Origin: a virus
DNA length: 38,166 nucleotides
Reading direction: 5' to 3' (one strand)
IMG/VR virus record: IMGVR_UViG_3300035698_004396
Span: 1 to 38,166 of that record
Numbering within the stretch: position 1 is the stretch's first letter; the number at the start of each line of letters is the position of its first letter. The translations under genes were made by a program, and so were the position numbers. This document shows, piece after piece, positions 11,240 through 36,842 of this stretch. The notes below the pieces were generated by a model. The model saw only the letters and a list, made by a program, of their open reading frames with translations, did not search any database and was not told the origin of the DNA.

Positions 11240-11259
11240 GGACTTGGTGAATTTCGAGC
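11240..11259 (+). repeat. Intergenic element, copy 3 (inverted relative to the others)
   Basis: GGACTTGGTGAATTTCGAGC here matches 18 of 20 bases of GGACTTGGTGAAATTCGCGC on the minus strand at 16088-16069. This copy points the other way relative to transcription and lies in the leader of the nuclease operon. Confidence 0.6.
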
Positions 11260-11270
11260 AATGAACCACC

Positions 11271-12854: not shown

Positions 12855-13178
12855 TCACTTATCCCTTCTAAAAGGCTTGTCTTTACGCCATATTTTAAAT
12901 GCTTGTCTACGTTCTTTTGTAGGTGTAGTTGCACAGGGGCAGTTGTTTGACAATTCACATTGTTTAGGATTAACAAACAGCTTACAATCGGCTGCTATTT
13001 GCAAACACTTACCTGTGCAAGCTTTTGGTATGCTTCCCATATCTGGACAATACCCTGAAGCACAAAATGTTGCGTAACCTGTCATGTATGGGCAAGCATG
13101 TACAACGCGGTCAGTTTTTTTGGCCTGTTTCTCCTTATGAAGTCTAGAATCAGGCTCTGAAAAAATGTTACTATTCAC
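12855..13178 (-). CDS. Cysteine-rich hypothetical protein
   Basis: A protein of 107 residues with nine Cys between residues 29 and 82 (ACPYMTGYATFCASGYCPDM, CTGKCLQIAADC, CELSNNCPC) and basic ends. The density suggests two or more metal sites. GTG at 13178 has no good ribosome site, so the exact start is unsure. It ends 4 bp before the Lar-like start and its 3' end supplies that gene's ribosome site (AAGGGA). Confidence 0.65.
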   Translation of the reverse strand: MNSNIFSEPDSRLHKEKQAKKTDRVVHACPYMTGYATFCASGYCPDMGSIPKACTGKCLQIAADCKLFVNPKQCELSNNCPCATTPTKERRQAFKIWRKDKPFRRDK

Positions 13179-13211
13179 TTTGCTACTTTCAAAAAGGTGT
13201 TGCTAAAAAGA

Positions 13212-13260
13212 GGATAGAATTAAGAGAGTAGGCAATTTCTACCTACTCTCTATTATTCTA
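13212..13260 (-). terminator. Terminator downstream of the HTH regulator
   Basis: AGAGAGTAGG (13223-13232) and CCTACTCTCT (13242-13251) form a perfect 10-bp stem that AT-rich flanks extend. In the leftward direction the hairpin is followed, about 15 nt on, by CTCTTTTT, so the regulator gene at 13272 may be its own transcription unit. Confidence 0.65.
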
Positions 13261-13271
13261 ATTATGCGGAA

Positions 13272-13670
13272 TTACTCTGCGTCGTCAGCGTGGGATTCAG
13301 CAATAGCAGCGTCCAGAAGAATTGCAATAACATCAACAGCAGCAGACTTAGCTTCGTCATTAACCAAATCAGTAGCGTTAATCATCTTACGCACTGACTT
13401 AAGACGCTGTACCTTATAACTCTGAGGCCCAGTAGAAGCTTTCTTAAGTGCGCGTGTTTCTACAAGAGCATCCAGGTCAGAAACATGCACCCACAACTTA
13501 TTACGTCCACCAGGATTATCCAGTGCTGGTCGTTTCACAGCGTCCAAACGCTCTTCTCGCACCATCTTACGCAAAGTCATAGCATCGACACCAGCATACA
13601 TTGCCGCTTGACGAACATCGAGCATGCTCTCTGCATCTGGCACAATTTGAATAGTAAACCTGTCAGACAT
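13272..13670 (-). CDS. Excisionase/MerR-like HTH DNA-binding protein with own promoter
   Basis: A protein of about 132 residues from ATG 13670, preceded by AGGGGGATTCTA. MLDVRQAAMYAGVDAMTLRKM is a helix-turn-helix of the excisionase/MerR type, followed by a wing (RNKLWVHVSDLDALVE). The C-terminal helix region is rich in Ala and Asp (DDAE end). It has a near-consensus promoter 57 nt upstream and a terminator after its stop, so it is probably strongly and separately expressed. Its middle is richer in GC (32 of 60 in 13501-13560) than neighbouring genes. The architecture resembles the HTH protein at 24689, suggesting two related regulators. Confidence 0.85.
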   Translation of the reverse strand: MSDRFTIQIVPDAESMLDVRQAAMYAGVDAMTLRKMVREERLDAVKRPALDNPGGRNKLWVHVSDLDALVETRALKKASTGPQSYKVQRLKSVRKMINATDLVNDEAKSAAVDVIAILLDAAIAESHADDAE

Positions 13671-13726
13671 TAGAATCCCCCTAATATGTTCTTGAAAAAA
13701 ATATAACTCTCTGCACGTGCTCATCT

Positions 13727-14627: not shown

Positions 14628-14791
14628 ACTTGCCTTCCAAACTTTAGAAAGTATACTTTATTATGGTCAATTATTCTTGCATACAATACAAATTCATCGT
14701 AGCCTAGCGCCATCAATCTTTTAATATTATCGTATCTTTCTTCTACAGAATAGTATACCAGCCTGCCAGCAACAAATTTAATTTGTACCAT
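14624..14791 (-). CDS. Small hypothetical protein (55 aa)
   Basis: ATG at 14791, with AAGG 9-10 nt upstream, overlaps the end of the preceding gene by 14 bp. TGA at 14624 overlaps the XRE GTG start. The sequence begins MVQIKFVAGRLVYYS and ends KVYFLKFGRQV, a beta-alpha-beta-like layout with many aromatic residues. Coupling on both sides supports a real gene. Confidence 0.72.
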   Translation of the reverse strand: MVQIKFVAGRLVYYSVEERYDNIKRLMALGYDEFVLYARIIDHNKVYFLKFGRQV

Positions 14792-15275
14792 AACACCATA
14801 CCTTACAGTAGTTTATAAGTTCTTGCCAATGTATTTTTGATATGTCTATACTTTGTTCACATGGTGTCTCCGTTTCTTCTTCTGCCATAAAGATTACATT
14901 CATTACAAGACGCTGAAAGGTTAATACTTTTTGTGTCCTAATTAGCATTGCTACAGCATTTCTGTAATGGCTTGTATCTAGCATATTATAGATTGTTTGG
15001 GTTTCAATATTTACAAATAGCCGATTTTCTGGATCATAAGTATATACCTTACTCAATGCTGCTACATATCCTGTAATATACCCAATAAGTTCTTCCAGTG
15101 TAATTTTTTCCTGTACAGGTTTAAATGGATATGCTATCTTAAATCCACCAGAGGCATATTTTACCAAACGCCAAGATTTTTTCTTATCTGTATTTGCACC
15201 ATAACAGCCATGTGTGAGTGTTCGTAGAGTAGTCAATTGTTTTCTCAAAAGTTCTAAGTTTTTAGCTTCTTGCAT
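14778..15275 (-). CDS. Small-protein array member A (unknown)
   Basis: A protein of 165 residues. A helical N-terminus (NLELLRKQLTTLRTL) leads to a beta hairpin (SWRLVKYASGGFKIAYPFK) and a helical domain. The last 20 residues hold KIHWQELINY, a variant of the hDW-x2-hY motif seen in many genes of this array. ATG with GGGGG 12 nt upstream. The 77-nt gap before it is AT-rich with long A/T runs. Function unknown. Confidence 0.8.
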   Translation of the reverse strand: MQEAKNLELLRKQLTTLRTLTHGCYGANTDKKKSWRLVKYASGGFKIAYPFKPVQEKITLEELIGYITGYVAALSKVYTYDPENRLFVNIETQTIYNMLDTSHYRNAVAMLIRTQKVLTFQRLVMNVIFMAEEETETPCEQSIDISKIHWQELINYCKVWCYGTN

Positions 15276-15352
15276 AGTCTAAGAGGCCCCCATTGGAAGT
15301 TTTTATAAAAAAGTTCAGTCTTCTAAAAAAAAGAGTACCCTTTGTATCATTG

Positions 15353-15583
15353 CTAGTTTTTACCAAATACAACTCCTAGCAGTGCTCCATCTATGAATGC
15401 TTCAAACTCTTGTATAGAAACAGTTGTACCATTAACAGGCCACAGTTGCGTAGTTTTACCAGCAGAGTTAGTAACAATGTTAAGGTAAAATGCATTGCTA
15501 CGACACACAACAGAAAATGTACCCGTAACATCTGTTTGTAGTTGCTTATTTAGTTGTTCTACTTTATTTAGAATGTCTTGCAT
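15353..15583 (-). CDS. Small-protein array member B (unknown)
   Basis: A protein of 76 residues with a coiled-coil-like start (DILNKVEQLNKQLQ), three beta strands (GTFSVVCRSNAFYLNIVT) and a short C-terminal helix (SIQEFEAFIDGALLGVVF). ATG with GAGGG 9 nt upstream, overlapping the end of member C by 16 bp. Function unknown. Confidence 0.8.
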   Translation of the reverse strand: MQDILNKVEQLNKQLQTDVTGTFSVVCRSNAFYLNIVTNSAGKTTQLWPVNGTTVSIQEFEAFIDGALLGVVFGKN

Positions 15584-15993
15584 ACTGTATAACCCTCGTA
15601 CATATTCTCTTTTGGTCGCAGTGCTACAATACCATGCCAGAATGGCCTATACTTTTTAATGTTGTATATATAACACCAGAAACACAAACTACTTGTATGT
15701 CTAACTTTTATTAGTTCATCTTGATGTATAGATATTTGTTTTGCTATAACAGTAACGTCTTTACTAGACCAGTCCATGTTAATTTCTTGTAATGCTACCA
15801 TATAACGTAGCGCATCACTTAGCCTTTCTGTACTACCAGTACGATAACCTGTAGGTGTATGTGTAATAGTCCAGTAGGGATATATTCTATTACCAATATT
15901 ACGAGTAGCAAAAAATCCATTACGGCGACCCTTTACTGCCCTAAATTGTGGCGTACCTGAATTAGGGTAGCATTCATGATAATAGCTATTCAT
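15568..15993 (-). CDS. Small-protein array member C (unknown)
   Basis: A protein of 141 residues with a basic, aromatic N-terminus (RAVKGRRNGFFATRN, YPYWTITHTPTGYR) and a centre containing INMDWSSKDV. HTSSLCFWCYIYNIKKY holds a CxxC that could bind metal. ATG with GAGG upstream. It is separated from member D by the intergenic repeat copy at 16.08 kb. Function unknown. Confidence 0.8.
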   Translation of the reverse strand: MNSYYHECYPNSGTPQFRAVKGRRNGFFATRNIGNRIYPYWTITHTPTGYRTGSTERLSDALRYMVALQEINMDWSSKDVTVIAKQISIHQDELIKVRHTSSLCFWCYIYNIKKYRPFWHGIVALRPKENMYEGYTVCKTF

Positions 15994-16059
15994 TTGTAAT
16001 TTCCTCTATAAACTATTTACAGTATACTTTGTTTCCTTTTGTGCCGTATCTCGTTTTTT

Positions 16060-16107
16060 CACAAAAACGCGCGAATTTCACCAAGTCCCTTAAGACCTTA
16101 GTTTGTT
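16060..16107 (-). repeat. Intergenic element, copy 1
   Basis: About 48 bp, roughly 77% identical and without gaps to the copy at 17320-17367. The core on the minus strand is GGACTTGGTGAAATTCGCGC, followed by GTTTTTGTGAAAAAAC, which can form a small hairpin. It begins inside the stop region of member D and ends about 67 nt before member C. Confidence 0.75.
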
Positions 16108-16481
16108 ACAGTGTGCCAATTATGTTCATTTACTTTTCGTTCTAGGTGTACCATACCGAAACATACTGAAGATATCAACTCACCACATACACGATGATTT
16201 AAAAACCACTCAAAATCTACTTGCTCTACATACCATCCTGGTGGTAGCCATTGATTCATGCGTCTTTTTGTAGTCATAGTTTGCCAATTACCAGAATCTA
16301 GGTAACAAAACTCAACGCCGTCCTTAATACTAAATGTTACAACATCTGTATTATGATATGTAACTGCAACAGAATTATACTCAGTTCTACTTACATAGGT
16401 TGCCTTTTTCTTTGTGGCTCTATGGCTACTTCCACGCAAAAACTCTACTACATCATAGTAACCGTCGTAATTTTTAGCCAT
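16098..16481 (-). CDS. Conserved phage/plasmid hypothetical protein (array member D)
   Basis: A protein of 127 residues. EYNSVAVTYHNTDVVTFSIK, then SGNWQTMTTKRRMNQWLPPG and WYVEQ recall a family of small hypothetical proteins common in phages and environmental plasmids, where a 'xxVxLHxTDVVTF ... SGGWxTxTTKxRxNxxLP' core is conserved. The function of that family is unknown to me. The C-terminal VDFEWFLN may be a variant of the array motif. ATG with GGGAG upstream, two bp after member E. Confidence 0.85.
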   Translation of the reverse strand: MAKNYDGYYDVVEFLRGSSHRATKKKATYVSRTEYNSVAVTYHNTDVVTFSIKDGVEFCYLDSGNWQTMTTKRRMNQWLPPGWYVEQVDFEWFLNHRVCGELISSVCFGMVHLERKVNEHNWHTVTN

Positions 16482-16483
16482 TG

Positions 16484-16765
16484 TTATTTACTCCCTAGTA
16501 GTTGATTATACACACCATCACGATGACCCCAAATACTACGACCCATAACTGTTGCAATCCACAATTCGTCAGGTGCATTTTCATATGACACATTTACAAC
16601 CAATTGTGGATCATTATACACCGAAACACGAGCACCGACAATTTTACCATAGGCAAGTCCTTTCACTTTCACAGCATTAGTATTATCATTTACATTACTA
16701 ATAAATTTCTGCAAGGCTTCTTCTAGCGTCATAGGAAAGTAAATATTGTTCAATTTATTAGTCAT
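16484..16765 (-). CDS. Small-protein array member E (unknown)
   Basis: A protein of 93 residues: an N-terminal helix (LEEALQKFISNVNDN), beta strands (ARVSVYNDPQLVVNVSYEN) and a Trp-rich end (ELWIATVMGRSIWG). The ATG overlaps the stop of member F by one base (TAATG). No family recognised. Confidence 0.8.
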   Translation of the reverse strand: MTNKLNNIYFPMTLEEALQKFISNVNDNTNAVKVKGLAYGKIVGARVSVYNDPQLVVNVSYENAPDELWIATVMGRSIWGHRDGVYNQLLGSK

Positions 16766-17277
16766 TAGAATTGCCTCGTTGTATTTACGCCAGCGTCACC
16801 AACAATCCTATACATATTGATATATACATCTTTTGCAGGTTGCTTGGACAATGTTTGTATAAATGCGTTTACAGCATCTACAGCAACTATATATGCATCT
16901 ACCCAATCTATACTATCCAGTTCCCAACACTTGTTATATGCACGGTTGCACAGTGTATAAGTAACATCGTCTAGTTTATCATGCAACTTATTCAAAATAT
17001 CTTGTGTTGGAGTAGCCATATAAAATAGCCAATCAGGATCAAATGAATCGTAGATTTTAGTTGCCGTTGCATTTATATTATACTCATTATCAACCGACCA
17101 AATTTCTATAATCTCGCCATCAGTTGCTACAATAGCTAGTTTTTGGCCCTCAAAATCTCTATACATGATAGCTACACCAGCAGGAACCTGTGTTAGCATA
17201 CATAGAATATCTTGACTATTTGTAACCCACTCTGCTATTTCAGACAATTCAGTAACTGCTAACTGTTTCGGCATCAT
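16765..17277 (-). CDS. Small-protein array member F (unknown)
   Basis: A protein of 170 residues. A beta domain (GVAIMYRDFEGQKLAIVATD) is followed by a helical half containing DSIDWVDAYIVAVDAVNAF, a full hDW-x2-hY motif. ATG with GGAG 8 nt upstream. It is preceded by intergenic repeat copy 2, so it may begin a regulated segment. Function unknown. Confidence 0.8.
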   Translation of the reverse strand: MMPKQLAVTELSEIAEWVTNSQDILCMLTQVPAGVAIMYRDFEGQKLAIVATDGEIIEIWSVDNEYNINATATKIYDSFDPDWLFYMATPTQDILNKLHDKLDDVTYTLCNRAYNKCWELDSIDWVDAYIVAVDAVNAFIQTLSKQPAKDVYINMYRIVGDAGVNTTRQF

Positions 17278-17319
17278 TTGTTACACTCCAATAACTGTTG
17301 TATAGCTTGCCGGCATTTT

Positions 17320-17367
17320 ACAAAAAACGCGCGAAAACGACCAAGTCCTGTGAGACATCAGTTTGTT
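17320..17367 (-). repeat. Intergenic element, copy 2
   Basis: The core on the minus strand is GGACTTGGTCGTTTTCGCGC, then GTTTTTTGTAAAA. The homology to copy 1 extends upstream through AACAAACT. It lies after the stop of member G and about 42 nt before the ATG of member F. Confidence 0.75.
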
Positions 17368-17369
17368 TG

Positions 17370-17639
17370 CTACTCTGTACTTTCACGTGTGTTTTCAAAA
17401 ACATCATCCCAATCAACTTCCTTAAAGTCTATATAGTCGTCTGAAAAGCCATATTGCTTTAGTTTCATTAGAAACAACGGCATAATATTATTTATCAATT
17501 CTATTAGAGTATCAGCATGTCTTGCAATGAACTCACAAGCACTATCGTTAGAAATAACCAGGAATACTTCGTCTGTACTCCATTTATCGAATGGACTATC
17601 TGCGGCATATGCATCGTTCAATGCTTGTTTTAGCAACAT
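17370..17639 (-). CDS. Small-protein array member G (unknown)
   Basis: A protein of 89 residues, helical and acidic. DTLIELINNIMPLFLMKLKQ is a strong amphipathic helix, and DFKEVDWDDVFENTR at the C-terminus carries the DW motif with Phe in place of Tyr. ATG with GAGGA upstream in the TAATG junction with member H. Function unknown. Confidence 0.78.
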   Translation of the reverse strand: MLLKQALNDAYAADSPFDKWSTDEVFLVISNDSACEFIARHADTLIELINNIMPLFLMKLKQYGFSDDYIDFKEVDWDDVFENTRESTE

Positions 17640-17986
17640 TAGTTTTCCTCTTGTGCAGTATAGCAGTCTGCTTCTGGTAGCGCAGCTAGTTTTATATCGA
17701 ATACATCGTCATACAAATTAAAATTAATACTTGCAAGAGCTTCTGGTGTAAGTACAGACATACCATAAGTTCCGAGCATTGCATAATACATTTTTTGAAG
17801 AGCAGCATTGAACATTTCTCGTGTTTGATTTTTAGAATATTCACCAAACGGGAATCTAAAAGAGATACACAAATTAGTTGCTATAAAACATGCTTCGCTG
17901 TCAGAATAAGTAGTAGTAAAAGTGAATGACGGTGTACAATACGGAGTAAATCGTGTATGGATACTAAAATAGCTATTCTTAAGCAT
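17639..17986 (-). CDS. Small-protein array member H (unknown)
   Basis: A protein of 115 residues with a Ser/Thr/Phe-rich beta-type N-terminus (YFSIHTRFTPYCTPSFTF) and a helical middle (FNAALQKMYYAMLGTYGM). It lacks an obvious DW motif. ATG with GAGGAG 6 nt upstream, overlapping member I by 8 bp. Confidence 0.78.
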   Translation of the reverse strand: MLKNSYFSIHTRFTPYCTPSFTFTTTYSDSEACFIATNLCISFRFPFGEYSKNQTREMFNAALQKMYYAMLGTYGMSVLTPEALASINFNLYDDVFDIKLAALPEADCYTAQEEN

Positions 17987-18422
17987 TGTCTTGCTCCTCT
18001 TGAAGTTGCTGTTGTACTAGTTGCCAATCTACCAATTCTATGGTATTAGGAAACTCTGAAACATCTCCTCTTGCAACGTAAGAAAAAGTAATTGTATCTT
18101 CTTTCAAAGCCCATTGTAGTTGCTTTGAATATTTTAATACAGCCAAAAGGTATTCTGTTATAACATCCGTAATATAGCCTACCATAGCAACAAAAATAAT
18201 AATCTCATCCCAAGCTACTCGCATACTGTTTAATGGTACTGGTAGCCCTTGTTTAACAAATACAATAAAGTCTTGTATGCTCATATCAGCTACTGCATTT
18301 ATTGTTTGTCTACGACGAACTAACCTCATACATCCATTTTTACTAGAGTATCCCATAATATACCTGTATACTTCTAGTGTATCATCATCCCAGTTATGAA
18401 ATCCCAGCAACTTATGCAACAT
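17979..18422 (-). CDS. Small-protein array member I (unknown)
   Basis: A protein of about 147 residues, mostly helical (SIQDFIVFVKQGLP, EIIIFVAMVGYITDVITEYL), ending in TIELVDWQLVQQQLQEE with the array motif 20 residues from the end. ATG at 18422 lies 2 nt after the stop of member J with GGGA upstream; a GTG at 18434 is inside member J. Function unknown. Confidence 0.78.
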   Translation of the reverse strand: MLHKLLGFHNWDDDTLEVYRYIMGYSSKNGCMRLVRRRQTINAVADMSIQDFIVFVKQGLPVPLNSMRVAWDEIIIFVAMVGYITDVITEYLLAVLKYSKQLQWALKEDTITFSYVARGDVSEFPNTIELVDWQLVQQQLQEEQDNA

Positions 18423-18424
18423 TG

Positions 18425-18889
18425 TTAGTCCCACTTAATTGTGTACGCTCTTAGTACATTCCTAAACACTTGAGGCCAAAAAATATCGTCTGAGTTAATA
18501 ATCATACCTGTTGTTTTTTGTACATATTCTTGCACATCCGCTGCAAAAAATGTTGGTTGTTGTATATCTCTATGAAGTTGTGTCAATTCCAAATCAGCAA
18601 GTAGCAACTGTTGAACCTGTTTAGTTAGTGCAAACTGTACTTTTAGCATATACGTTACTTCTAGCGCATCATTATATACAACATTAATTTTACCATTGAA
18701 GAGTTTGTATTGTACAAGTAACGCATACGTTGCACTGACTACGTTAGTATCTATACACGCAAAAGCTGCTTGCACAGCAGGGATATACCTATCTGTAGAT
18801 TCGTATGTCTGCGTTACAATATTGTAAACGAATACAGCCTTAGTTGGCATACTCCTATAACAATGCATACGTGGCATTTCATATTCCAT
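18425..18889 (-). CDS. Small-protein array member J (unknown)
   Basis: A protein of 154 residues, helical (VQAAFACIDTNVVSATYALL, QVQQLLLADLELTQLHRDIQ), with a C-terminal DDIFWPQVFRNVLRAYTIKW that is a weak match to the array motif. ATG with AGGAG 8 nt upstream. A 46-nt gap precedes it. Function unknown. Confidence 0.8.
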   Translation of the reverse strand: MEYEMPRMHCYRSMPTKAVFVYNIVTQTYESTDRYIPAVQAAFACIDTNVVSATYALLVQYKLFNGKINVVYNDALEVTYMLKVQFALTKQVQQLLLADLELTQLHRDIQQPTFFAADVQEYVQKTTGMIINSDDIFWPQVFRNVLRAYTIKWD

Positions 18890-18935
18890 TAGATATACTC
18901 CTGTAGTACAAAAGAAATACTATACATCGGATGCT

Positions 18936-19346
18936 TCATTTTACAACCTTTCCAGTATATATACGTGCATTTTGCATCCAAGTATCTATAATCCCATACA
19001 CTTCATGTGTCATAGCACTTGACAATGAAAACACTCCCATATCTGTTGATATGTCAGTTACGTAATCTATCAAAAGTAGTTCTAGTGTCTTCTTTACAAG
19101 TACTTCTGATTCTGTCATTGCAGATACTTGCAGATAATCAGCCAGTGCTACCAAATCATATTCTTGCAAAGGAATACCAGTGTCTACAAGTTTTAGAATA
19201 GCAAGTGGCCTTATTGCAATACTCTGCGAGATAAAGTTAGTTGCACACTTTCGTACACATTCAACAAACCACTCATAGAAAAACCATTCGTATTCAAATT
19301 GCACAGTACTGCTTTTCTTTTCGTATCGAATAGTTACTTGAAACAT
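18936..19346 (-). CDS. Small-protein array member K (unknown)
   Basis: A protein of 136 residues. A beta-strand start (FQVTIRYEKKSSTVQFEYEW) is followed by helices (VLVKKTLELLLIDYVTDIS, VYGIIDTWMQNARIY). ATG with GGAGT upstream, 12 bp after member L. Function unknown. Confidence 0.8.
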   Translation of the reverse strand: MFQVTIRYEKKSSTVQFEYEWFFYEWFVECVRKCATNFISQSIAIRPLAILKLVDTGIPLQEYDLVALADYLQVSAMTESEVLVKKTLELLLIDYVTDISTDMGVFSLSSAMTHEVYGIIDTWMQNARIYTGKVVK

Positions 19347-19358
19347 GTTATACTCCTA

Positions 19359-19790
19359 CTAGCACACAGCACAATGATAAATATATGGCCACAAACAAAG
19401 ATTTTCAGAAACTACGATACCGTATCCTAGCTTCAGATACGTTCTACTAGATTTACTAAATATACACAAATTATCTTGTGATACTGCAGAAATAGTGTCT
19501 AGCAGTTTTGCTACTTCACTAGAATATGTATACACTGCATTGATGTACATATACACTTCAAACCAATTAACATCTGCATAGTGTTGCATAATTGTTTGTG
19601 GTGCAGAAGTACACAATTCAATAAGTTCTGGCATATTTACTAACCACTTACTAAAATACTGCATAGTGGCTGAATAAAATGCTATAGAATATCTAGTAGA
19701 GCCATCAGATGTACACTTGTCAGATAATAGCTGTTCAACAATTGCTCTCTGTGTAAACTTCCAAGTAGCAGGATCAAATGCGTTATACAT
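19359..19790 (-). CDS. Small-protein array member L (unknown)
   Basis: A protein of about 143 residues from ATG 19790 with GAGG 8-9 nt upstream; a TTG-led extension to 19820 lies inside member M and is not used. Helical, with QHYADVNWFEVYMYINAVYT, then SSEVAKLLDTI. This shares with members M, N, O and U the arrangement motif - aromatic helix - short hydrophobic helix. The C-terminus is Cys/Trp-rich (NLCLWPYIYHCAVC). Function unknown. Confidence 0.8.
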   Translation of the reverse strand: MYNAFDPATWKFTQRAIVEQLLSDKCTSDGSTRYSIAFYSATMQYFSKWLVNMPELIELCTSAPQTIMQHYADVNWFEVYMYINAVYTYSSEVAKLLDTISAVSQDNLCIFSKSSRTYLKLGYGIVVSENLCLWPYIYHCAVC

Positions 19791-20280
19791 CTTTAGTTTC
19801 CTCTTTTTCCATACATGCAATTTTGTTTAGCAGCCTATGTTGTAGTATATTTGAACTTCGCATTTCAAAATTTACATATTCTAGTAACCTTTCGTGTATA
19901 TCTACCATCCTTGTTACATGCGTATACGTCATTGTGTATGCTGCTTTATATAGTTCAAAAACTATATCTGTGTATTGTACCATACATACACCTGTGCAAT
20001 ACAAAGTTACCCAATCAACAAGTCCATACTGTTCCTCCATTTTGGCCCATTCAATATGGTCAGTCAATAATCTTGCAAAGCGTTCTTTTAGGGCTAATGC
20101 ACTAGCACTAACGGTTTTTGTATCGTCTGATACAAGTGACACAAAAATCTCTTCTGCTGATACTTTTCTTTTCACAGAAACTGGCTGAAGCCCATTCATT
20201 TCTTGTAGCAATACTCTTATAGCAATACCTGTTGTGTAGCTAGTATTGTCATACATTACTTTGTCCTTTGATGCATACAT
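19783..20280 (-). CDS. Small-protein array member M (unknown)
   Basis: A protein of 165 residues with a central YGLVDWVTLYCTGVCMVQYT, then DIVFELYKAAYTMTY, matching the DW-x2-hY motif and following helix of member L. ATG with GGAG 8 nt upstream in the junction with member N. The C-terminus is basic. Function unknown. Confidence 0.8.
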   Translation of the reverse strand: MYASKDKVMYDNTSYTTGIAIRVLLQEMNGLQPVSVKRKVSAEEIFVSLVSDDTKTVSASALALKERFARLLTDHIEWAKMEEQYGLVDWVTLYCTGVCMVQYTDIVFELYKAAYTMTYTHVTRMVDIHERLLEYVNFEMRSSNILQHRLLNKIACMEKEETKDV

Positions 20281-20753
20281 TAGTACTGCTCCTTCTTCTT
20301 TATTATGAGAGTGTACAAATAGTTCCAGTCAATATGCTCTCTATCGAAAATCAAACGCTCACTTCTTGTAGCTACAGCTTCTAGTGATTGCTTGAATTGC
20401 ATAACAGGACAAGGTTTGTATATATTATAACTAGCAAGAGCTTTTGCTAGTTGCATAGTTCTAGAACGCACATATAGCAGATATGCATAAATTGCATCCC
20501 ACTGTATACGTGCATAAAGTTTTTCTGTTAGACAATATGGCACATATCCATTATTCTGTGCTTTTATTCGTTCTATAACTTCTGTAGGCCACAATAGTTC
20601 GTTTACAACAATAAGCGAATCATATACTGCTTGTATACGCTTAGATACGTACTCAGATTGTACTTGTACCTCATAGCCATTTGTACCTACAAGAGCGCAT
20701 AGGATAGTTTTTTCTACGTCACTAAAATGTTCTGGTAGTTGTGTAATAAGCAT
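20280..20753 (-). CDS. Small-protein array member N, paralog of O and U
   Basis: A protein of 157 residues. It starts MLITQLPEHFSDVEKTIL, has an internal RIQWDAIYAYLLYVRSRT and a C-terminal EHIDWNYLYTLIIKKK, so the motif occurs twice. It aligns along its length with member O (both 157 residues; start QxPEHF, motif, then xLAxxxxxY, then ERLI or EKLI, then DWxYLYT). ATG with GGGAG upstream. Function unknown. Confidence 0.85.
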   Translation of the reverse strand: MLITQLPEHFSDVEKTILCALVGTNGYEVQVQSEYVSKRIQAVYDSLIVVNELLWPTEVIERIKAQNNGYVPYCLTEKLYARIQWDAIYAYLLYVRSRTMQLAKALASYNIYKPCPVMQFKQSLEAVATRSERLIFDREHIDWNYLYTLIIKKKEQY

Positions 20754-20756
20754 TGT

Positions 20757-21230
20757 TTATACTCCCTTATTTACTACGCACATAGTGTATAGGTAGTGCC
20801 AGTCTACACAGTTACAAGCAACGATCAGTTTTTCTCCTGCTGTAATAATCCTTTTCAGTTCATGTTCAAATAGCTCAGTAGGCATAGCATAGAAAGTGTA
20901 TCCTGCCATACCACTTGCAAGTCTGCGTGTTACAGTACCACAATAGGAGATATAGTGATAAATTGCGTCCATATCTACTACAGTATCACCAACGTCTATT
21001 TGACTGAAAGAATAGGGTGTAGTATATTGAGGTAGCAAGCTGTATATGTCATGCAAATTCTTATACCATGCAATTTCGTTATAAGCTATATTCGTTTGTA
21101 TATACACTTCCTGGATGCACTTAGCTTGTGTAGCAGAAAGTTCCGCCCTATAAGTAGACGGTACAAGAAGTTCTCGAATAAATGTTATTTCTGAAAAAGT
21201 AAAATGCTCAGGAACTTGTGTGTGATACAT
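20757..21230 (-). CDS. Small-protein array member O, paralog of N and U
   Basis: A protein of 157 residues starting MYHTQVPEHFTFSEITFI. The internal motif is VVDMDAIYHYISYCGTVT (Met replaces Trp), followed by RRLASGMAGYTFYA. The C-terminal motif is CVDWHYLYTMCVV. It lies directly upstream of member N in the operon, a tandem duplication that has diverged strongly. Its ATG is in a TAATG junction with member P. Function unknown. Confidence 0.85.
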   Translation of the reverse strand: MYHTQVPEHFTFSEITFIRELLVPSTYRAELSATQAKCIQEVYIQTNIAYNEIAWYKNLHDIYSLLPQYTTPYSFSQIDVGDTVVDMDAIYHYISYCGTVTRRLASGMAGYTFYAMPTELFEHELKRIITAGEKLIVACNCVDWHYLYTMCVVNKGV

Positions 21231-21598
21231 TATTTCATACCTGCCTTTAGTTTATCGTTTTTAGTTGCTGGGCGTTCAAATCCTAACATAAACATATCAT
21301 CATCACGAATAGATACTAGTGTAGAACTCCATGCACTATCATTAAAGTAACCATCCCAACCATACATATTGTCTAGTTTATCACAATGCTCATTTATGCG
21401 CATAATCTCGCACAGGGGGAGATATGTTTCACTCCTATAGTCATATAGGTACATTGTTTCATCGCCTATATTATCCCAATATGTTTTATCGGACGTTGGT
21501 AACTCTTGATATGATATAGTTTCCTCTAGTTCCATACTAAAGTCAACTGCCATATAACCATTATCCGTAATATACACATATGTACCTTCGTTAGTCAT
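21230..21598 (-). CDS. Small-protein array member P (unknown)
   Basis: A protein of 122 residues, acidic and Tyr-rich (DNIGDETMYLYDYRSETYLP, YGWDGYFNDSAWSSTLVS). It may be a small beta domain. ATG with GGAGT upstream. It shows no DW motif and breaks up the paralog series. Function unknown. Confidence 0.8.
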   Translation of the reverse strand: MTNEGTYVYITDNGYMAVDFSMELEETISYQELPTSDKTYWDNIGDETMYLYDYRSETYLPLCEIMRINEHCDKLDNMYGWDGYFNDSAWSSTLVSIRDDDMFMLGFERPATKNDKLKAGMK

Positions 21599-21930
21599 TA
21601 GTGTCTACTCCTGCAAAGAACGGCACCTATTTGATTGCGCACTACAACAGACATATCATTAACATTTTGCCACGCTTCTAGTTTGTTCCAATCAATCTTT
21701 AGTGCCAAAAGTTCTTCTACCGCTGCTTCTGCCCAACGCAACAAGTCAAATGTCCAACAAGTACAACCTGACTTTCTTAGGAATACTTCATAGTACACAT
21801 TATCATGTTGCATTCTATCTTTTCGTTTCACAATAGAAAATGCACCATGCGCATACCCTAGTGTCTTTACTTTGGCACCATCTTGTTTCCAATCCCTTAT
21901 TACCACACAACTAAGTTTCCGATTAGGCAT
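21598..21930 (-). CDS. Small-protein array member Q (unknown)
   Basis: A basic protein of 110 residues with a beta N-terminus (VKTLGYAHGAFSIVKRKD), a CxCW pair (SGCTCWTF) and ALKIDWNKLEAWQNV, an hDW motif with Glu replacing Tyr. It overlaps member R by 8 bp. Function unknown. Confidence 0.8.
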   Translation of the reverse strand: MPNRKLSCVVIRDWKQDGAKVKTLGYAHGAFSIVKRKDRMQHDNVYYEVFLRKSGCTCWTFDLLRWAEAAVEELLALKIDWNKLEAWQNVNDMSVVVRNQIGAVLCRSRH

Positions 21931-22168
21931 TATTTAGCGCCTCTTTTTCTGTTAGACAAACTAGTCCAAGATCATTTTGTGTCAAGTAGTCATATCCGTA
22001 CATCCCATATTTTATTGGTACTTGTACTCTATTAATTGATCTTTTCCATGTCTTTACTTTTCCATTGACACGCCATCTTTGCGGTGTACCATCACCATTG
22101 CGATGCATTATATGATACAAGATTGTACCATGCGTAAGGTTCTTTGCCTGTTCTAGTGTGATAGCCAT
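21923..22168 (-). CDS. Conserved hypothetical protein (RWRVNGK-type, array member R)
   Basis: A protein of 81 residues: TLEQAKNLTHGTILYHIMHR, then DGTPQRWRVNGKVKTWKRS, then RVQVPIKYGMYGYDYLTQND. This matches a small family often found in phages and environmental contigs with a 'DGTxxRWRVNGKVKTWKR..R..VPxKxGxYxY' core. Its function is not known to me. Basic, so nucleic-acid binding is possible. ATG with GGAG upstream. Confidence 0.85.
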   Translation of the reverse strand: MAITLEQAKNLTHGTILYHIMHRNGDGTPQRWRVNGKVKTWKRSINRVQVPIKYGMYGYDYLTQNDLGLVCLTEKEALNNA

Positions 22169-22169
22169 A

Positions 22170-22502
22170 CTATTCTCCTACATCCCTAGTAACGTCCAAC
22201 ATAATACGGAACATAATTTTTCGTACCGAGTGAGAGTCTACTAGCATGACAGCATCAACCATGTATTCTAGAAACCTATGTGGTTTCGCATTATAGTTGA
22301 TTGCGTTTAACGCTACTAGCATTAGAAACCAAGGAGTAGAACTCGTGCTTTCCCTAGCAAGTTTTATATGCTCAGTAATTTCACCTCTTGTACTATTCTC
22401 AAATAGTTTTAGTATATCAAAGAATGTATCGTAACTGCTATGATACTCATTGATACCTTTTGCCAGTATTGTAATATAGTGTAGTGCTTCTTGTGTTTGC
22501 AT
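22170..22502 (-). CDS. Small-protein array member S (unknown)
   Basis: A protein of 110 residues, almost entirely helical (LHYITILAKGINEYHSSYDT, FLMLVALNAINYN, VRKIMFRIMLDVTRDV). The ATG overlaps the stop of member T by one base (TAATG). It has no DW motif. Function unknown. Confidence 0.78.
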   Translation of the reverse strand: MQTQEALHYITILAKGINEYHSSYDTFFDILKLFENSTRGEITEHIKLARESTSSTPWFLMLVALNAINYNAKPHRFLEYMVDAVMLVDSHSVRKIMFRIMLDVTRDVGE

Positions 22503-22873
22503 TATAGTGCTACCATGCTTTCTTGAGGATCAACAGTGACTGTTTCACCATTTGTTAGGTCATAATACATATACCCTATCGTTCTTACTGGCATCGCCGA
22601 GTGTACTGTTACCCACGTTTCTTGCAGGTACGTTTCGTCGCAGTCATCGTATTCTTTACGTGCAACAAAAACCCAGCCAACTTCTTTTACATCACCATCA
22701 TTGGCTAGGTCTATATATACTTTACTTATACACCTTCCATACTCTCTTTGCATTGCATGATACAACTCGCCACGTGTAGTACAATCGGTCTCATAAACAT
22801 CGCTCTTATATATTAGGCTACTATAGGAGGCATTGTAGATACTTTCTTGAACAAACAAATTTTTCTCTGGCAT
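22502..22873 (-). CDS. Conserved hypothetical protein (array member T)
   Basis: A protein of 123 residues. VGWVFVARKEYDDCDETYLQ, then ETWVTVH, resembles a small conserved phage/environmental family with a WVFxxRxxYxDxxExYxxExWVxV core. Function unknown. It starts in a TAATG junction with the Lar-like frame upstream, which suggests that frame is translated or recently was. Confidence 0.8.
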   Translation of the reverse strand: MPEKNLFVQESIYNASYSSLIYKSDVYETDCTTRGELYHAMQREYGRCISKVYIDLANDGDVKEVGWVFVARKEYDDCDETYLQETWVTVHSAMPVRTIGYMYYDLTNGETVTVDPQESMVAL

Positions 22874-23022
22874 TAGATTCTACCTCTATTCCAAATATCA
22901 ACTGCTATTTTTTCTGTATCAGCAGTAGGCCCACGAGAATCGCACAGGGTGCATTGTACATAATAGTAAGGTCTTTTAGTAGGCGACTTTTCACATACTA
23001 CTACTTGTTTGCTACCACACCA
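22873..23022 (-). pseudogene. Lar-like zinc-protein frame without a start codon
   Basis: This open frame reads WCGSKQVVV, then PYYYVQCTLCDSRGPTADTE, then KIAVDIWNRGRI, a good match to the Lar pattern (CxWCGSK ... VxCxxCxxRGP ... A-x-x-WN). The expected first Cys region is replaced by TAC-TGA, and no ATG, GTG or TTG lies in frame. It overlaps the end of member U and ends in TAATG with member T. It is most likely a decayed gene, or it is reached by frameshifting from member U. Confidence 0.55.
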
Positions 23023-23429
23023 TCAGTAAGTTCTTGCAATACTCCTCCTATGTATTGCTGTGCCACATGCTGAAAAATAGTTGCACTATCACACTTTAGA
23101 CTATCGAGACCATCGGTAGTATCAAAGATTTCGTGCGTTCTAATCTTGATACGACCAATGTAGTAGTATATAAAAAACCAATCTATAACATCTGCTGCGA
23201 CATCGAAAAACGAATCTGTAAACGTATCTGGTAATTCAATCTGCAACCTCTTAATAGTAACATACGTAAACAGTTTAAATGATTCATTGGCAGTGTTGTA
23301 GACAGCGATAATACGTTGTCTATAGGCTTTATAATATGTGGGCAAGACACCATCGCCAACATGAATAAGTTGTGTCAGGATCATTCGCTCTTGTTTAGTA
23401 ATGTTCTGTGGAAACTGTTTTGGGTTCAT
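23001..23429 (-). CDS. Small-protein array member U, paralog of N and O
   Basis: A protein of 142 residues starting MNPKQFPQNITKQERMIL (compare QLPEHFSDVEKTI in N) with RQRIIAVYNTANESFKLF and DVIDWFFIYYYIGRIKIRTH, matching the RIxAVY and internal DW-x2-IY regions of N and O. It lacks their second, C-terminal motif. ATG with GGAG 6-7 nt upstream. It is the first gene of the leftward array, about 90 nt after a candidate promoter, so transcription probably begins here. Function unknown. Confidence 0.82.
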   Translation of the reverse strand: MNPKQFPQNITKQERMILTQLIHVGDGVLPTYYKAYRQRIIAVYNTANESFKLFTYVTIKRLQIELPDTFTDSFFDVAADVIDWFFIYYYIGRIKIRTHEIFDTTDGLDSLKCDSATIFQHVAQQYIGGVLQELTDGVVANK

Positions 23430-23522
23430 GTTTTTCTCCTATAGCAAACAATATACACTGGCGCAGTTGGCCACACCCTAGGTTACCACACCAACATGAA
23501 CAAACTATGAAAAACCAAAAAT

Positions 23523-23550
23523 GTAATACCACAGATACGCATGTAGTCAA
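23523..23550 (-). promoter_or_regulatory. Candidate promoter for the small-protein array
   Basis: Minus-strand TTGACT (23550-23545), 16-nt spacer, TATTAC (23528-23523). The -35 box is good (5/6) and the -10 is moderate (4/6). It is the only -35/-10 pair I see directly upstream of member U. Confidence 0.45.
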
Positions 23551-23634
23551 AAAGTTTGCTCTGCTTTGCAGTTGACGCCGGATCATTTGCCGTGGTTTGG
23601 TGTATTATATTATTATATTATTACATTTTTAAAT

Positions 23635-23673
23635 GGAGAGAGAGAGGAAGAGAGAAAGAGAGGGAAAGAAAGA
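23635..23673 (+). repeat. 39-nt homopurine (A/G) run
   Basis: An uninterrupted run of A and G on the plus strand from GGAGAGAGAG onward, following an AT-only stretch. It can form triplex (H-DNA) or act as an easily melted, factor-binding tract. No gene crosses it. Confidence 0.85.
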
Positions 23674-23684
23674 CTAAAACGTCC

Positions 23685-23700
23685 TAACACATATGTGTTA
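23685..23700. repeat. Perfect 16-bp palindrome
   Basis: TAACACATATGTGTTA is fully self-complementary and lies 11 bp after the homopurine run. Length and symmetry suit a dimeric repressor or replication-protein site. Confidence 0.7.
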
Positions 23701-23946
23701 CATAGCGTGTATCCATCTAGCCCAGTCGTAGGACTACTATAATATAATAATCTAATTTTATAATATATATATATAATACTCCTCTTCACCATGGTTGACA
23801 GCTAGTTTTTTACTGTTTATTGGCTCGCAGATTCTAATAGAATTACATTTTGTTTTGAATACTCTAGTGAGTCCGTCAAGTATTAGGGGTCATTCTGAAT
23901 AAATAGAAAATGTAACAAAAAAACAGCACTAAATTATGTCAACCAT

Positions 23947-23976
23947 TATTATAAAATTCGGATAAATTTTATAATA
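23947..23976. repeat. 12-bp perfect inverted repeat, AT-rich
   Basis: TATTATAAAATT (23947-23958) and AATTTTATAATA (23965-23976) flank CGGATA. A third copy of AATTTTATAATA is at 23754-23765. TATAAT occurs on both strands, so overlapping promoters are possible. Confidence 0.65.
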
Positions 23977-24324
23977 CGACTGGGGTTTACTATGGTGCTG
24001 TGCAGTTCTATATGTTAGCGTGGCTAATAACATACACTGGTTATACACTGTTCTACCTGTGCCTACGCTGGGAGATATTATATATAAACACTAGTCTTAT
24101 GCGAAGTTTGTAGTTTGTAGGATAGTCTCGTTGTAAGTTTAACGTAAAGAGAGTAGTCTCTTATAAACTTTGCTGGTGTAATAAGTTTACATAATATAAG
24201 TTAACATAACAAAAAAAAACATAGGTAGGGGCAATGGCTGGCATAATATTCTTGTGCATACTATACGCTAGTGAGACTATTCTATTGTAGAATATGTTTG
24301 TCATAAAATATCTTTTACGATAAT

Positions 24325-24357
24325 AGTATGAGCCGGTTTGTGAGACCAACCCATACT
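24325..24357. terminator. Hairpin after the 83-aa gene
   Basis: AGTATG (24325-24330) pairs with CATACT (24352-24357), with inner GGTT/AACC pairing. It lies 9 bp after the stop of the gene at 24366. No T run follows, so it may be a weak terminator or an RNA-stabilising end. Confidence 0.4.
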
Positions 24358-24365
24358 ACACTGCA

Positions 24366-24617
24366 CTATTCGGATGATAGGCAGAACGTGCGATCAGGCA
24401 TATTGGCCAGTCTGCAAGAGGGATTATAGCAGTACACTACCAACGTATTGTTCTTGTCATGCAATGTACGCCAGTCTGCACTATAACCCATTGGTAACAG
24501 ACGCTTGATCTCGTTTTGCATATGTTGTAATGCTTCTTGCCTATTTGTGAAGCGCTGATATACTCCGGCACCGTGGCCAGCACCATAAAAGGCATAGTCT
24601 GTGAGTGTTGTTTTCAC
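24366..24617 (-). CDS. Hypothetical small protein
   Basis: A protein of 83 residues: YGAGHGAGVYQRFTNRQEAL, then a helix (QHMQNEIKRLL), then DKNNTLVVYCYNPSC. GTG at 24617 has GGAG 9 nt upstream. It follows the HTH gene by 71 bp and is followed by a hairpin. It is one of only two genes in the control region, which suggests an early role. No family recognised. Confidence 0.7.
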   Translation of the reverse strand: MKTTLTDYAFYGAGHGAGVYQRFTNRQEALQHMQNEIKRLLPMGYSADWRTLHDKNNTLVVYCYNPSCRLANMPDRTFCLSSE

Positions 24618-24688
24618 GGTACATACTCCAATGTTGAGAGTGTAGACTATGTTTGTGTCTAGCCTACACTCTGTACTGTGCTGTGATA

Positions 24689-25075
24689 CTACTCGTCCTT
24701 ACCGCGTTCCGCATAATCTACATTATAGGCTGTGCGGTAACGTTCAATCGCCGCTGTGAATAATGCCCGTTGTTCTGGTGTCAACTTTTTGTCTAGTGAC
24801 ACCCTTTTGGCTATCCTATCACAAGATGCTATAGACGGACGTGTACTTTCCGGATGGTCAATGGCGTTTTGTTTCTTTGCTTCCTTTGCTTTGCGAAACT
24901 CACAGTATACTGCAAGGCTGGCCTTGTCGATTCTTACGCGACCCTGATTGTTCTTGCTTGCTGCTATTTTGCCCTTGGCGATTAGTTGACGAATGTAAAC
25001 TTGTGTAACTCTTGCAGCTTGTGAAGCTTGAACAACTGTTACGCTATTTGATTCGGTCGCTTTTTGCGCTGTCAT
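24689..25075 (-). CDS. Excisionase/MerR-like HTH DNA-binding protein
   Basis: A protein of about 128 residues from ATG 25075 with AAAGGGG about 9 nt upstream. VVQASQAARVTQVYIRQLIA forms the helix-turn-helix, followed by a wing (NNQGRVRIDKASLAVYCEF) typical of HTH_17 proteins. The basic linker leads to a helical C-terminus (LTPEQRALFTAAIERYRTAY). It resembles the HTH protein at 13272 in layout. It lies downstream of a perfect TATAAT box and two sets of direct repeats, so it is probably autoregulated and may bind the control region. Confidence 0.82.
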   Translation of the reverse strand: MTAQKATESNSVTVVQASQAARVTQVYIRQLIAKGKIAASKNNQGRVRIDKASLAVYCEFRKAKEAKKQNAIDHPESTRPSIASCDRIAKRVSLDKKLTPEQRALFTAAIERYRTAYNVDYAERGKDE

Positions 25076-25111
25076 GATATAAACCCCTTTGGTTGTTTGG
25101 TAACGTACTCC

Positions 25112-25139
25112 ATTATACGCCAACATAGACGTATAGACG
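25112..25139 (-). promoter_or_regulatory. Promoter with tandem operator-like repeats
   Basis: Minus-strand TATAAT (25117-25112) has no recognisable -35 box. Its -35 position is occupied by two direct copies of CGTCTAT (25139-25133 and 25131-25125), 8 bp apart. This suits a regulator bound at -35. The HTH gene starts 37 nt downstream. Confidence 0.55.
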
Positions 25140-25165
25140 CGGTTGGTCGTACCCTACTAGGTTTG

Positions 25166-25206
25166 ACCGCCTAGAATCCTACCGCCATTTTATGATAGTT
25201 ACCGCC
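25166..25206. repeat. Three ACCGCC direct repeats
   Basis: ACCGCC occurs at 25166-25171, 25181-25186 and 25201-25206, the last two as TACCGCC. Centres are 15 and 20 bp apart in otherwise AT-rich DNA. These are candidate binding sites (iterons or operators) upstream of the HTH gene. Confidence 0.6.
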
Positions 25207-25251
25207 TATGTTGTGTGGCCGCTAGCTTGGGCCGCGATACAATGCAAGCAC

Positions 25252-25260
25252 AGTATAGCA
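25252..25260 (-). promoter_or_regulatory. Extended -10 promoter candidate
   Basis: Minus-strand TGCTATACT, the same nonamer as in the strong promoter at 13727. No clear -35 box. A similar TGCTATAAT lies on the minus strand at 25421-25413. Both could transcribe leftward into the HTH gene. Confidence 0.4.
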
Positions 25261-25686
25261 TACAATCCGGTTTGTGTCCATAGTCTATACGTTAACATTT
25301 GGTTAATATTTGCAACACAAATAGTTATGTTAACATAACAAACGTAAAGACTGCGTAAAACCAACTTACAAGACTATATATTGTTTTGTTACAGTTAAGC
25401 CTAGATTGTAGGATTATAGCATAGTTTGTGAGTGTTTTAGTTTGTTTTGCTCGGCTTGTGTGTTTGTTTACGTTCTTGCACTGTCAAGGCGAGATTATAT
25501 CTTTATGTTGCGGTTTGTTGTAGTCGTTTTCTTTTTGGTGTAGTATGCTGAAAACCACCTGCCCTCTCTACTAAAAACTGCCGCAACTTTTTAGGTACTA
25601 ACAGTTTCTTGTCATATTTTCGCCGAAACTATAACACTAATTTGTCACTTGACTTTGTAGGACTTTGCGAATATACTGGACATACT

Positions 25687-28060: not shown

Positions 28061-28216
28061 GTGACAGAGTTTGTGTCTGGCGTGTGGCTATTGTGGCAAG
28101 AAGCTAAGAAGGTGCTATTGCTACTTGGAGTTATCTTGGTTTTTACTGTCTGTGGTAGTATTGTTATGTTAGTACTAACAGAATGTTTGTCTCTGCTTAT
28201 TGATGGGAGATTTTAA
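28061..28216 (+). CDS. Small single-pass membrane protein (51 aa)
   Basis: GTG at 28061 is preceded by AAAGGGGGATCACG. The protein starts MTEFVSGVWLLWQEAKKV, then has a hydrophobic helix LLLLGVILVFTVCGSIVMLV (19-38) and a short tail. The strong ribosome site and membrane helix make it a credible gene missed by length cut-offs. It overlaps the first residues of a longer reading of the next gene. It may anchor the glycosyltransferases at the membrane, but this is speculation. Confidence 0.72.
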   Translation: MTEFVSGVWLLWQEAKKVLLLLGVILVFTVCGSIVMLVLTECLSLLIDGRF

Positions 28217-28220
28217 GCCA

Positions 28221-29966
28221 ATGACAATTCCGATTGTTATTCCGACGTACAATGCAGTTCAGCATATTCACCGATGCATGAGGGCTTTGCCACAAACAAC
28301 CACTGTGCCATACGAAGTTTTTATTGCTGATGACTTTTCCTCTGAACATGCATTGCATACTTACCTAGATGAGGTTAACGAAGACGCTGATACGACTGTA
28401 TTCTTTAGTGACAAACGTCTAGGTTACGCAGAGATTAACAATTGGGCAGTGTCACAAATACCAGACTCTGAATACATTTGCTTTATGAATTCAGATATCG
28501 AACCTACGGCTGGCTGGCTATCTGCTATGCTTGGTGAAATGGAAGTTGATCCTACTGTCGGAGTTGTTGGTGCAAGACTGCTTTATCCCGATACAAGAGA
28601 GCGTGGTACAAGATTTAGAGTACAACACGCAGGTGTTGCTAGAACGTCTCTGTGCTATCCGTATCATCCGTTTCGTGGGTGCCAAGCAGTTGATCCTGAT
28701 GTAGCAATACGTAGAGAAATCAATGCTGTAACTTTTGCATGCGTTCTTGTACGTAAAGAAATATGGGATAAGCTAAACGGACTAGATGAAGGCTATATCG
28801 GTGGTAACTTTGAGGATGTAGACTTTTGTTGGCGTGCTAGGGCAGAGGGTTATAAAGTTGTGTACCAACCTAGTGCTACGCTGTACCATTATGAACATGG
28901 GTCTGGAACAGACTGGGTAGAGAAATACTCAGACCAGAATTGTATTAGGCTACGTAAAAAGTTTGCGCACCTTAAAAGTGATGAACTGTTGTTTGGAATA
29001 CAACCAGAAGAGATAGAAGAAGTAGTAGTAGTTGTAGAAGAACCTAAACGCAAGGAGACTAGAACCGTGGCTATCAGTGTTCCTAATGTTTCTGTAATCG
29101 TCACTACTTATGAACGTAAGAAACATCTTAAGCTTTGTCTTGAAGCACTTGCATGTCAGAAAATGCCTTTTTGGAATTATGAAGTTATTGTTGTTGACGA
29201 TGGTGGTACTGATAACAGTGATGAGGCTGTTACTGAAATTAAAGCAGCCTATCCTGACTTGAATGTGCAGTATTCTTGGCATGTGCATGATGGTTGGGGC
29301 CTTGCTAAGAGTAGAAACCTTGGTGCTGCAAAGGCTACTGGAGAGTGTCTAATCTTTATTGACAGCGATATTCTTCTTAATCCAACAGCTCTAGCTGCAT
29401 ATGTTGAATTGTATCAAGATGAACCTGATAGAGTTATTGGCGGGTACTATAAGTACCTTATTGCAATGAATATTACAACTACAGATGTTGAAAATTGGTA
29501 CGATATTTGGAATATGAAGCTAGAAGAAGTGCCTATGGTACAGCACGAATATCAGCTTCTAGGTACTGATGTTCGAGAAGCACACTTTAATCAAGGGCGC
29601 CTCGGTGTAGATTTGTTTGCAGATGATACAATGTTGCATAAGAATCCGTTTTCCTTGCTCGGTGGCAACTTGATGATACCTAGACATATTTGGCAGTTGA
29701 CAGACGGCTTTGATGAAAATATTACCCATTATGGTGGAGAGGATGCTGAGTTCTCTTTGCAAATAGCTGCGCTACATTATCCATTTAGCTTTTCTAAGGC
29801 TGTTGGAGGCTGCCATATGGCGCACACTAAACATCCTGGTGCTGAAGAGAAGACTAAATTGGCAATAGACTATATCCATAATAAATGGCCTGAATGGTTT
29901 ACAGAGCATGGTTATCCTATTTGGACTTTCTCTGGCTGGGAATATCCTAATATTGATGAGGATTAA
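28221..29966 (+). CDS. Two-domain GT2 glycosyltransferase
   Basis: A protein of about 581 residues with two GT-A domains in tandem. Domain 1 (3-245): IPIVIPTYNA, NSD at 90-92 as the DxD metal motif and NFEDVDFCWRA as the ED motif. An acidic/Val linker (EEIEEVVVVVEEPKRKE, about 263-279) follows. Domain 2 (289-575): VSVIVTTYER, VVDDGGTDNSD, DSD at 381-383 and GGEDAEFS. Both sites look intact, so it may add two sugars in sequence, as in chondroitin synthase-like enzymes. ATG at 28221 is chosen because the family begins directly with the first strand and GGGAG lies 11 nt upstream. Confidence 0.9.
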   Translation: MTIPIVIPTYNAVQHIHRCMRALPQTTTVPYEVFIADDFSSEHALHTYLDEVNEDADTTVFFSDKRLGYAEINNWAVSQIPDSEYICFMNSDIEPTAGWLSAMLGEMEVDPTVGVVGARLLYPDTRERGTRFRVQHAGVARTSLCYPYHPFRGCQAVDPDVAIRREINAVTFACVLVRKEIWDKLNGLDEGYIGGNFEDVDFCWRARAEGYKVVYQPSATLYHYEHGSGTDWVEKYSDQNCIRLRKKFAHLKSDELLFGIQPEEIEEVVVVVEEPKRKETRTVAISVPNVSVIVTTYERKKHLKLCLEALACQKMPFWNYEVIVVDDGGTDNSDEAVTEIKAAYPDLNVQYSWHVHDGWGLAKSRNLGAAKATGECLIFIDSDILLNPTALAAYVELYQDEPDRVIGGYYKYLIAMNITTTDVENWYDIWNMKLEEVPMVQHEYQLLGTDVREAHFNQGRLGVDLFADDTMLHKNPFSLLGGNLMIPRHIWQLTDGFDENITHYGGEDAEFSLQIAALHYPFSFSKAVGGCHMAHTKHPGAEEKTKLAIDYIHNKWPEWFTEHGYPIWTFSGWEYPNIDED

Positions 29967-29974
29967 CCAATAAA

Positions 29975-31617: not shown

Positions 31618-31618
31618 A

Positions 31619-36195: not shown

Positions 36196-36201
36196 ACTAA
36201 T

Positions 36202-36841: not shown

Positions 36842-36842
36842 T

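Follow-up and report, generated by a model that had tools for sequence, protein, structure and literature searches.

The sequence studied here is a single virus record of IMG/VR (IMGVR_UViG_3300035698_004396) of 38,166 bases, analysed over its whole length and referred to below as the window. Its minus strand carries, from 753 to 25126, a leftward block encoding a helicase, a DNA polymerase, a primase, a RecA-like ATPase and an exonuclease, and a rightward block opens with the small (25609) and large (26198) terminase genes. The promoter-proximal end of the leftward block is formed by an array of 21 small genes, named A to U, which is the subject of this analysis; about 2 kb (23430-25608) lie upstream of it and include a helix-turn-helix gene at 24689-25126. 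An original prediction, made by reading the sequence, had proposed that these genes descend from one ancestral small helical protein, recognizable by the recurring motif hDW-x2-hY, where h is a hydrophobic residue. We describe within the array a smaller paralog family, N/O/L/U, and a second, distinct family, C/Q, and we interpret the whole as a probable accessory module of high gene turnover.

14778..23429 (-), array of 21 small genes A-U

All 21 open reading frames (ORFs) lie on the minus strand, encode 76-170 amino acids and for the most part overlap or abut. Every one of them scores positive for codon usage in its own frame and negative in the other two, and most starts are preceded at a usable spacing by a partial Shine-Dalgarno sequence matching four or five of the six positions of AGGAGG. 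Genes A to U are real coding candidates, and the array of about 20 tightly coupled genes announced by the original prediction stands, with 21 members of coding-like codon use.

The motif was found at all the places where it had been reported, to which further sites and variants can be added.

20487..20507 (-), motif site 1 in N, IQWDAIY, mid-protein; helix predicted from residue 85
20313..20333 (-), motif site 2 in N, IDWNYLY, C-terminal; helix predicted from residue 143
20787..20807 (-), motif site 2 in O, VDWHYLY
19551..19571 (-), motif site 1 in L, VNWFEVY
23166..23186 (-), motif site 1 in U, IDWFFIY
21676..21696 (-), motif in Q, IDWNKLE, equivalent to LPW/LGW of the C family
19999..20019 (-), motif in M, VDWVTLY, without further similarity
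18012..18032 (-), motif in I, VDWQLVQ, near the C-terminus
17397..17417 (-), motif in G, VDWDDVF, near the C-terminus
16891..16911 (-), motif in F, IDWVDAY
14814..14834 (-), motif variant in A, IHWQELI, near the C-terminus

The pattern hDW..h occurs eight times in the array, against 0.50 in shuffled sequences and 0.66 expected from 398 other phage ORFs, and once in the 6,948 amino acids of the remaining window proteins. Because the motif had been picked by eye, a look-elsewhere test compared each of the 400 possible residue pairs at XX of the frame h-XX-x2-h, using 1000 composition-preserving shuffles. DW was the sole outlier and none of the 1000 shuffles was as extreme, so that the outcome named beforehand as fatal to the idea, a motif no commoner than in shuffled sequences, was not what we observed. 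DW was still an outlier with a single gene kept per family (6 proteins, 0.39 expected), and the equivalent small-gene arrays of two related phages contained no outlier pair in the same test. Since the codons of the motif vary from site to site, it is a feature of the protein and no DNA site; an origin at the DNA level, as a promoter or a recombination site, is ruled out on the same ground. Its location near the C-terminus of several proteins, also claimed originally, holds for the strict matches of N and O but not for L, U and M, where it is mid-protein; the initial list therefore mixed non-equivalent positions. The tryptophan motif begins 12-19 residues before the C-terminus in A, G, I, J, L, N and O.

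An all-against-all search within the array connected four of its genes, N with O at an expectation value (E) of about 1e-18, L with U at 1e-5, and N with U and L at 0.002-0.006.

20280..20753 (-), gene N, core member, 157 amino acids; 31% identical to O
20757..21230 (-), gene O, core member, 157 amino acids; match to N and family alignment
19359..19790 (-), gene L, core member, start at ATG 19790 preferred; match to U and left-out profile test
23001..23429 (-), gene U, core member, first gene of the array; left-out profile test and family alignment

When L or U was left out and compared with a profile of the other three proteins, they scored 26.9 and 28.7 bits respectively, and in neither case did any of 1000 motif-preserving shuffles, in which the motif is held in place and the remaining sequence is shuffled, do as well. 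All shuffle P values given here are somewhat optimistic because shuffling destroys helical periodicity. The similarity of N, O, L and U thus extends beyond the motif and, judged by their sequences, they clearly constitute one new paralog family. The start of L is better placed at ATG 19790 than at TTG 19820, since the N-terminus trimmed in this way aligns with those of N, O and U. The family alignment places the motif at two positions, a mid-protein site 1 (N IQWDAIY, O VDMDAIY, L VNWFEVY, U IDWFFIY) and a site 2 near the C-terminus (N IDWNYLY, O VDWHYLY, L CLWPYIY); U is devoid of the C-terminal segment carrying site 2. The structure predicted for N is all-helical, at a low-confidence predicted local distance difference test score (pLDDT) of 54. 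Its helices begin at residues 85 and 143, at both tryptophan sites, which suggests that the motif is a helix-start element.

Searches for relatives outside this genome were negative. No convincing match to the family members was obtained in PHROGs or Pfam, nor to the family profile among PDB sequences, and the fold search with the N model, which is too weak for the purpose, returned no match. Among 50,697 phage records, neither the DNA of the array nor the O and U proteins had relatives. Scans of viral contigs with the N/O/U and N/O/L/U profiles, and of genome contigs with the N/O/U profile, likewise retrieved none, although their coarse pattern step leaves absence unproven. In the records of related phages, the N protein and the family profile matched only the window itself.

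A fifth gene can probably be added to this family through its C-terminal segment.

18425..18889 (-), gene J, probable member; profile match to N/O/L/U

J scores 11.7 bits against the N/O/L/U profile, better than 1000 of 1000 motif-preserving shuffles and than all 502 phage decoys. The highest score among 12,302 six-frame ORFs taken from other contigs was 1.2 bits lower (10.5 bits). With the C-terminal profile alone the match is weaker (P 0.01). A and I, whose match to such a profile had been named as support for the idea, do rise above most of their motif-preserving shuffles (P 0.002 and 0.011), but A aligns in an inconsistent register, its own C-terminal site falling on site 1 of the profile, and with the C-terminal profile alone the P values become 0.53 and 0.14; their sequences make membership possible at best. 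For M, F, G, K, S and H, the comparison with N/O/L/U gave P values of 0.05-0.92, using motif-preserving or plain shuffles, and nothing clear beyond the motif. This includes F and G, for which the same match had been proposed, as well as M, which had been placed with N, O, U and L in the core of the profile: the other four belong there, while M does not outscore its own shuffles with the motif kept in place (P 0.66). Once the motif was masked, pairwise scores outside N/O/U/L were close to the level of other pairs.

Other array genes have their affinities elsewhere. Related phages, among them records G001 and G005, were located with a polymerase profile.

15568..15993 (-), gene C, family conserved in related phages; blastp E 3e-6 to 4e-4
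21598..21930 (-), gene Q, C-family member carrying IDWNKLE; C-family profile, blastp, invariant Trp81 and model
22502..22873 (-), gene T, conserved in related phages and also in Salinibacter phages; 43-47% identity
15353..15583 (-), gene B, weak relative of a small-gene family of related phages; profile and blastp
16098..16481 (-), gene D, widespread phage family phrog_554; E 6.6e-9

The blastp matches of C are four genes in G001 and G005. Q reaches 10.9 bits with the C-family profile, more than any non-family decoy, and matches a homolog in L096 by blastp (E 0.009). The C/Q alignment contains three invariant residues, F31, G55 and W81; the last, located after a helix, is the tryptophan of the Q motif, at which the relatives read LPW or LGW. 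C and Q both show the similarity to the G001 and G005 homologs that defines this family, and Q gives no sign of belonging with N/O/L/U (P 0.86). The model of Q (overall pLDDT 66.9) is beta-beta-beta-alpha in its more confident part, residues 31-80, with block means of 75-87. A fold search with it matched only uncharacterized phage proteins (best E 3.6e-3), and none of the solved structures stood out. Q and N therefore differ in family and, according to the models, in fold, and the motif is found in at least two predicted folds. Unrelated folds had been named as an observation that would speak against a single family, and this is what the models indicate for Q (beta-beta-beta-alpha) and N (all-helical). 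The C family is duplicated in related phages as well (L090:2729-3909, L095:18948-19310, L096:2223-3020), and two of the copies there bear a long conserved C-terminal extension.

T is also encoded by Salinibacter phage M8CRM-1 (E 2e-10). B scores 13.1 bits, above all shuffles, with the profile of a small-gene family of the related phages (blastp E 0.006); a possible domain link between A and B found no support. D has a homolog in a more distant phage, L101, and matches phrog_554 as well as the Kyanoviridae Gp96 family PF23790 (E 4e-4), the Pfam score being under the cut-off; the likeness concerns D only. The description of nearly all array genes as unknown has to be amended for D and T, which are no orphans and have relatives elsewhere. 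A single ancestor for some 20 genes is not borne out, with M at shuffle level, Q in the C family and T, B and D in other families; what survives of the claim is an uncharacterized, locally expanded family of four genes, probably five.

The array differs from the rest of the leftward block in its conservation. Identity with G001 and G005 is 50-60% for the large leftward replication genes and 70% for the terminase, and of the 15 leftward genes that lie outside the array, 10 find blastp counterparts in the related phages, compared with C, T and, marginally, B and Q among the 21 array genes. The same place in the relatives, from the helix-turn-helix gene to the terminase, holds 21 small genes in G001 and 26 in G005, which share with the window only C/Q, T and, weakly, B. 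The related phages also possess their own pairs of small local duplicates within this region. Because different small genes stand at the same place, the array can be viewed as the fast-turnover, presumably early module of this phage group.

One trace of such turnover may be preserved at the junction of T and U.

22876..23022 (-), Lar-like (PF14354) fragment without start codon at the T/U junction; E 2.5e-6, 28.1 bits
12395..12976 (-), Lar-like gene downstream in the same gene block; E 3.5e-4, 21.2 bits

Gene U terminates inside the start-less Lar-like stretch, and since a 3'-truncated U here adjoins a 5'-truncated lar-like gene, the junction looks like a scar of illegitimate recombination. The fragment and the downstream gene match the profile of the Lar restriction-alleviation proteins, both below its curated cut-off of 28.6, and the array proteins themselves have no match to it. 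The two Lar-like domains lend modest support to a counter-defence theme of the block. Ten array proteins compared with the PADLOC profiles of anti-phage defence systems gave a best E of 0.0015 over part of a profile, which we judge to be noise.

Taken together, we propose, with a probability of about 0.6, that the array is a fast-turnover accessory module for host takeover or counter-defence, in which small genes are duplicated and swapped. The function is suggested by genes that are small, divergent, replaced between relatives and first in their block. The module would belong to a tailed phage and would open its leftward block, the one on the replication side, at the promoter-proximal end; it would hold several unrelated small-protein families: N/O/L/U and probably J, predicted to be all-helical, would be copies arising by local duplication followed by strong divergence, and C/Q, with its putative beta-beta-beta-alpha fold, would be present in two copies and common to related phages. 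From their position, the array proteins would most likely be the first made after infection; each may bind a host protein, either to take over host machinery or to block a defence, and duplication and replacement would let the gene set follow changing hosts. The motif itself may have a local structural role, in which an acidic or polar residue caps a helix and tryptophan and a hydrophobic face come next. The early host-interaction setting with local expansion that was first suggested is, in our judgement, likely. Several points weigh against this proposal. The family comprises four sequences, as no relatives outside this genome turned up in the collections searched; the N model is weak (pLDDT 54); and the early timing is read from gene position. 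The motif excess persists with one gene per family, so paralogy accounts for only part of it and not for the sites in F, G, I, M and A; the excess is genuinely odd.

This excess over the detectable families is what would be expected if most motif carriers, about 11 genes, descended from one small helical protein and had diverged beyond sequence recognition, a scenario also favoured by the C-terminal placement in seven proteins and by the scores of A and I. We hold it to be unlikely, however: apart from the motif, nothing clear links M, F, G, Q, K, S and H to the family, A aligns to the full profile in an inconsistent register, neither A nor I holds up against the C-terminal profile, and Q belongs to another family and predicted fold. 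The occurrence of the motif in at least two predicted folds, often C-terminally, its specificity to this phage among its relatives and a count never reached by shuffles would fit a short docking peptide, gained independently by unrelated proteins for one common partner such as a host complex. This is slightly less probable still: the tryptophan of Q occupies an old family position and hence was not newly gained, the N sites coincide with predicted helix starts, as for a structural element, and the position of the motif within the protein is not constant. An extension of this idea, in which hDW-x2-h[Y/F/V], in many cases 12-19 residues from the C-terminus, would dock unrelated early proteins to one host or phage partner and the array would be a set of adaptors for this hub, appears to us improbable. 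We give equally little credence to chance combined with amino-acid composition and noticed through pattern-seeking. The motif was indeed chosen after the data had been seen and the hydrophobic frame of the test was taken from the finding, but the excess withstands the 400-pair correction and two comparable arrays are free of any outlier. If there is a function behind the excess, a partner shared by the motif carriers would be indicated.

The accessory module proposed here can be compared with known systems; our search of the literature on paralog expansions in phage early regions yielded few direct matches. Bacillus phage SPO1 carries a host-takeover module whose 26 genes are said to shut down host processes (PMC6873191). 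Both are compact clusters of about two dozen small genes in early position, those of the array being without function by annotation. The SPO1 module differs in lying in a terminal redundancy, as stated in the title of Stewart 1998 (cited in PMC6873191), and in that early expression and host inhibition are for the array a matter of inference only. No sequence link between the two turned up, no comparison aimed at the SPO1 proteins having been made. Duplicates of a small early gene lying close together in one genome are also seen with AcrID1 in the SIRV rudiviruses, where 26 of 35 homologs are found in four genomes (PMC11065993); that case concerns an archaeal virus, a known anti-CRISPR (clustered regularly interspaced short palindromic repeats) family and a conserved early promoter, whereas the array belongs to a phage and its family has no known fold. 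The present analysis adds a new paralog family to what is known of an uncultured phage lineage. It also documents turnover of a putative early module in a phage group, where one and the same place is filled by different genes, with small local duplications and an apparent recombination scar. A further lesson is one of caution, in that a motif can be truly enriched and striking, yet common ancestry need not follow.

Some further elements were noted in the window. Two direct repeats of 52 nucleotides, 77% alike, at 16056-16107 (-) and 17316-17367 (-), occupy two of the few intergenic gaps and contain GACTTGGT-N4-TTCGCGCG; an inverted partial copy is present at 11241-11260. They are possibly a regulatory or terminator element of the phage. 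Directly after the terminase, the plus strand from 28200 to 37424 carries several glycosyltransferase-like genes, a nucleotide-sugar epimerase and methyltransferase-like genes, the first gene of this stretch keeping its position beside the terminase in related phages. HTH_17-like genes stand on both sides of the array, at 13272-13724 (-) and 24689-25126 (-), and the former has a counterpart in related phages at the far end of the small-gene region. Within 12977-13271, inverted copies GAGAGTAGGTA...TGCCTACTCTC precede a T-rich stretch and likely form a terminator downstream of the helix-turn-helix gene at 13272-13724.

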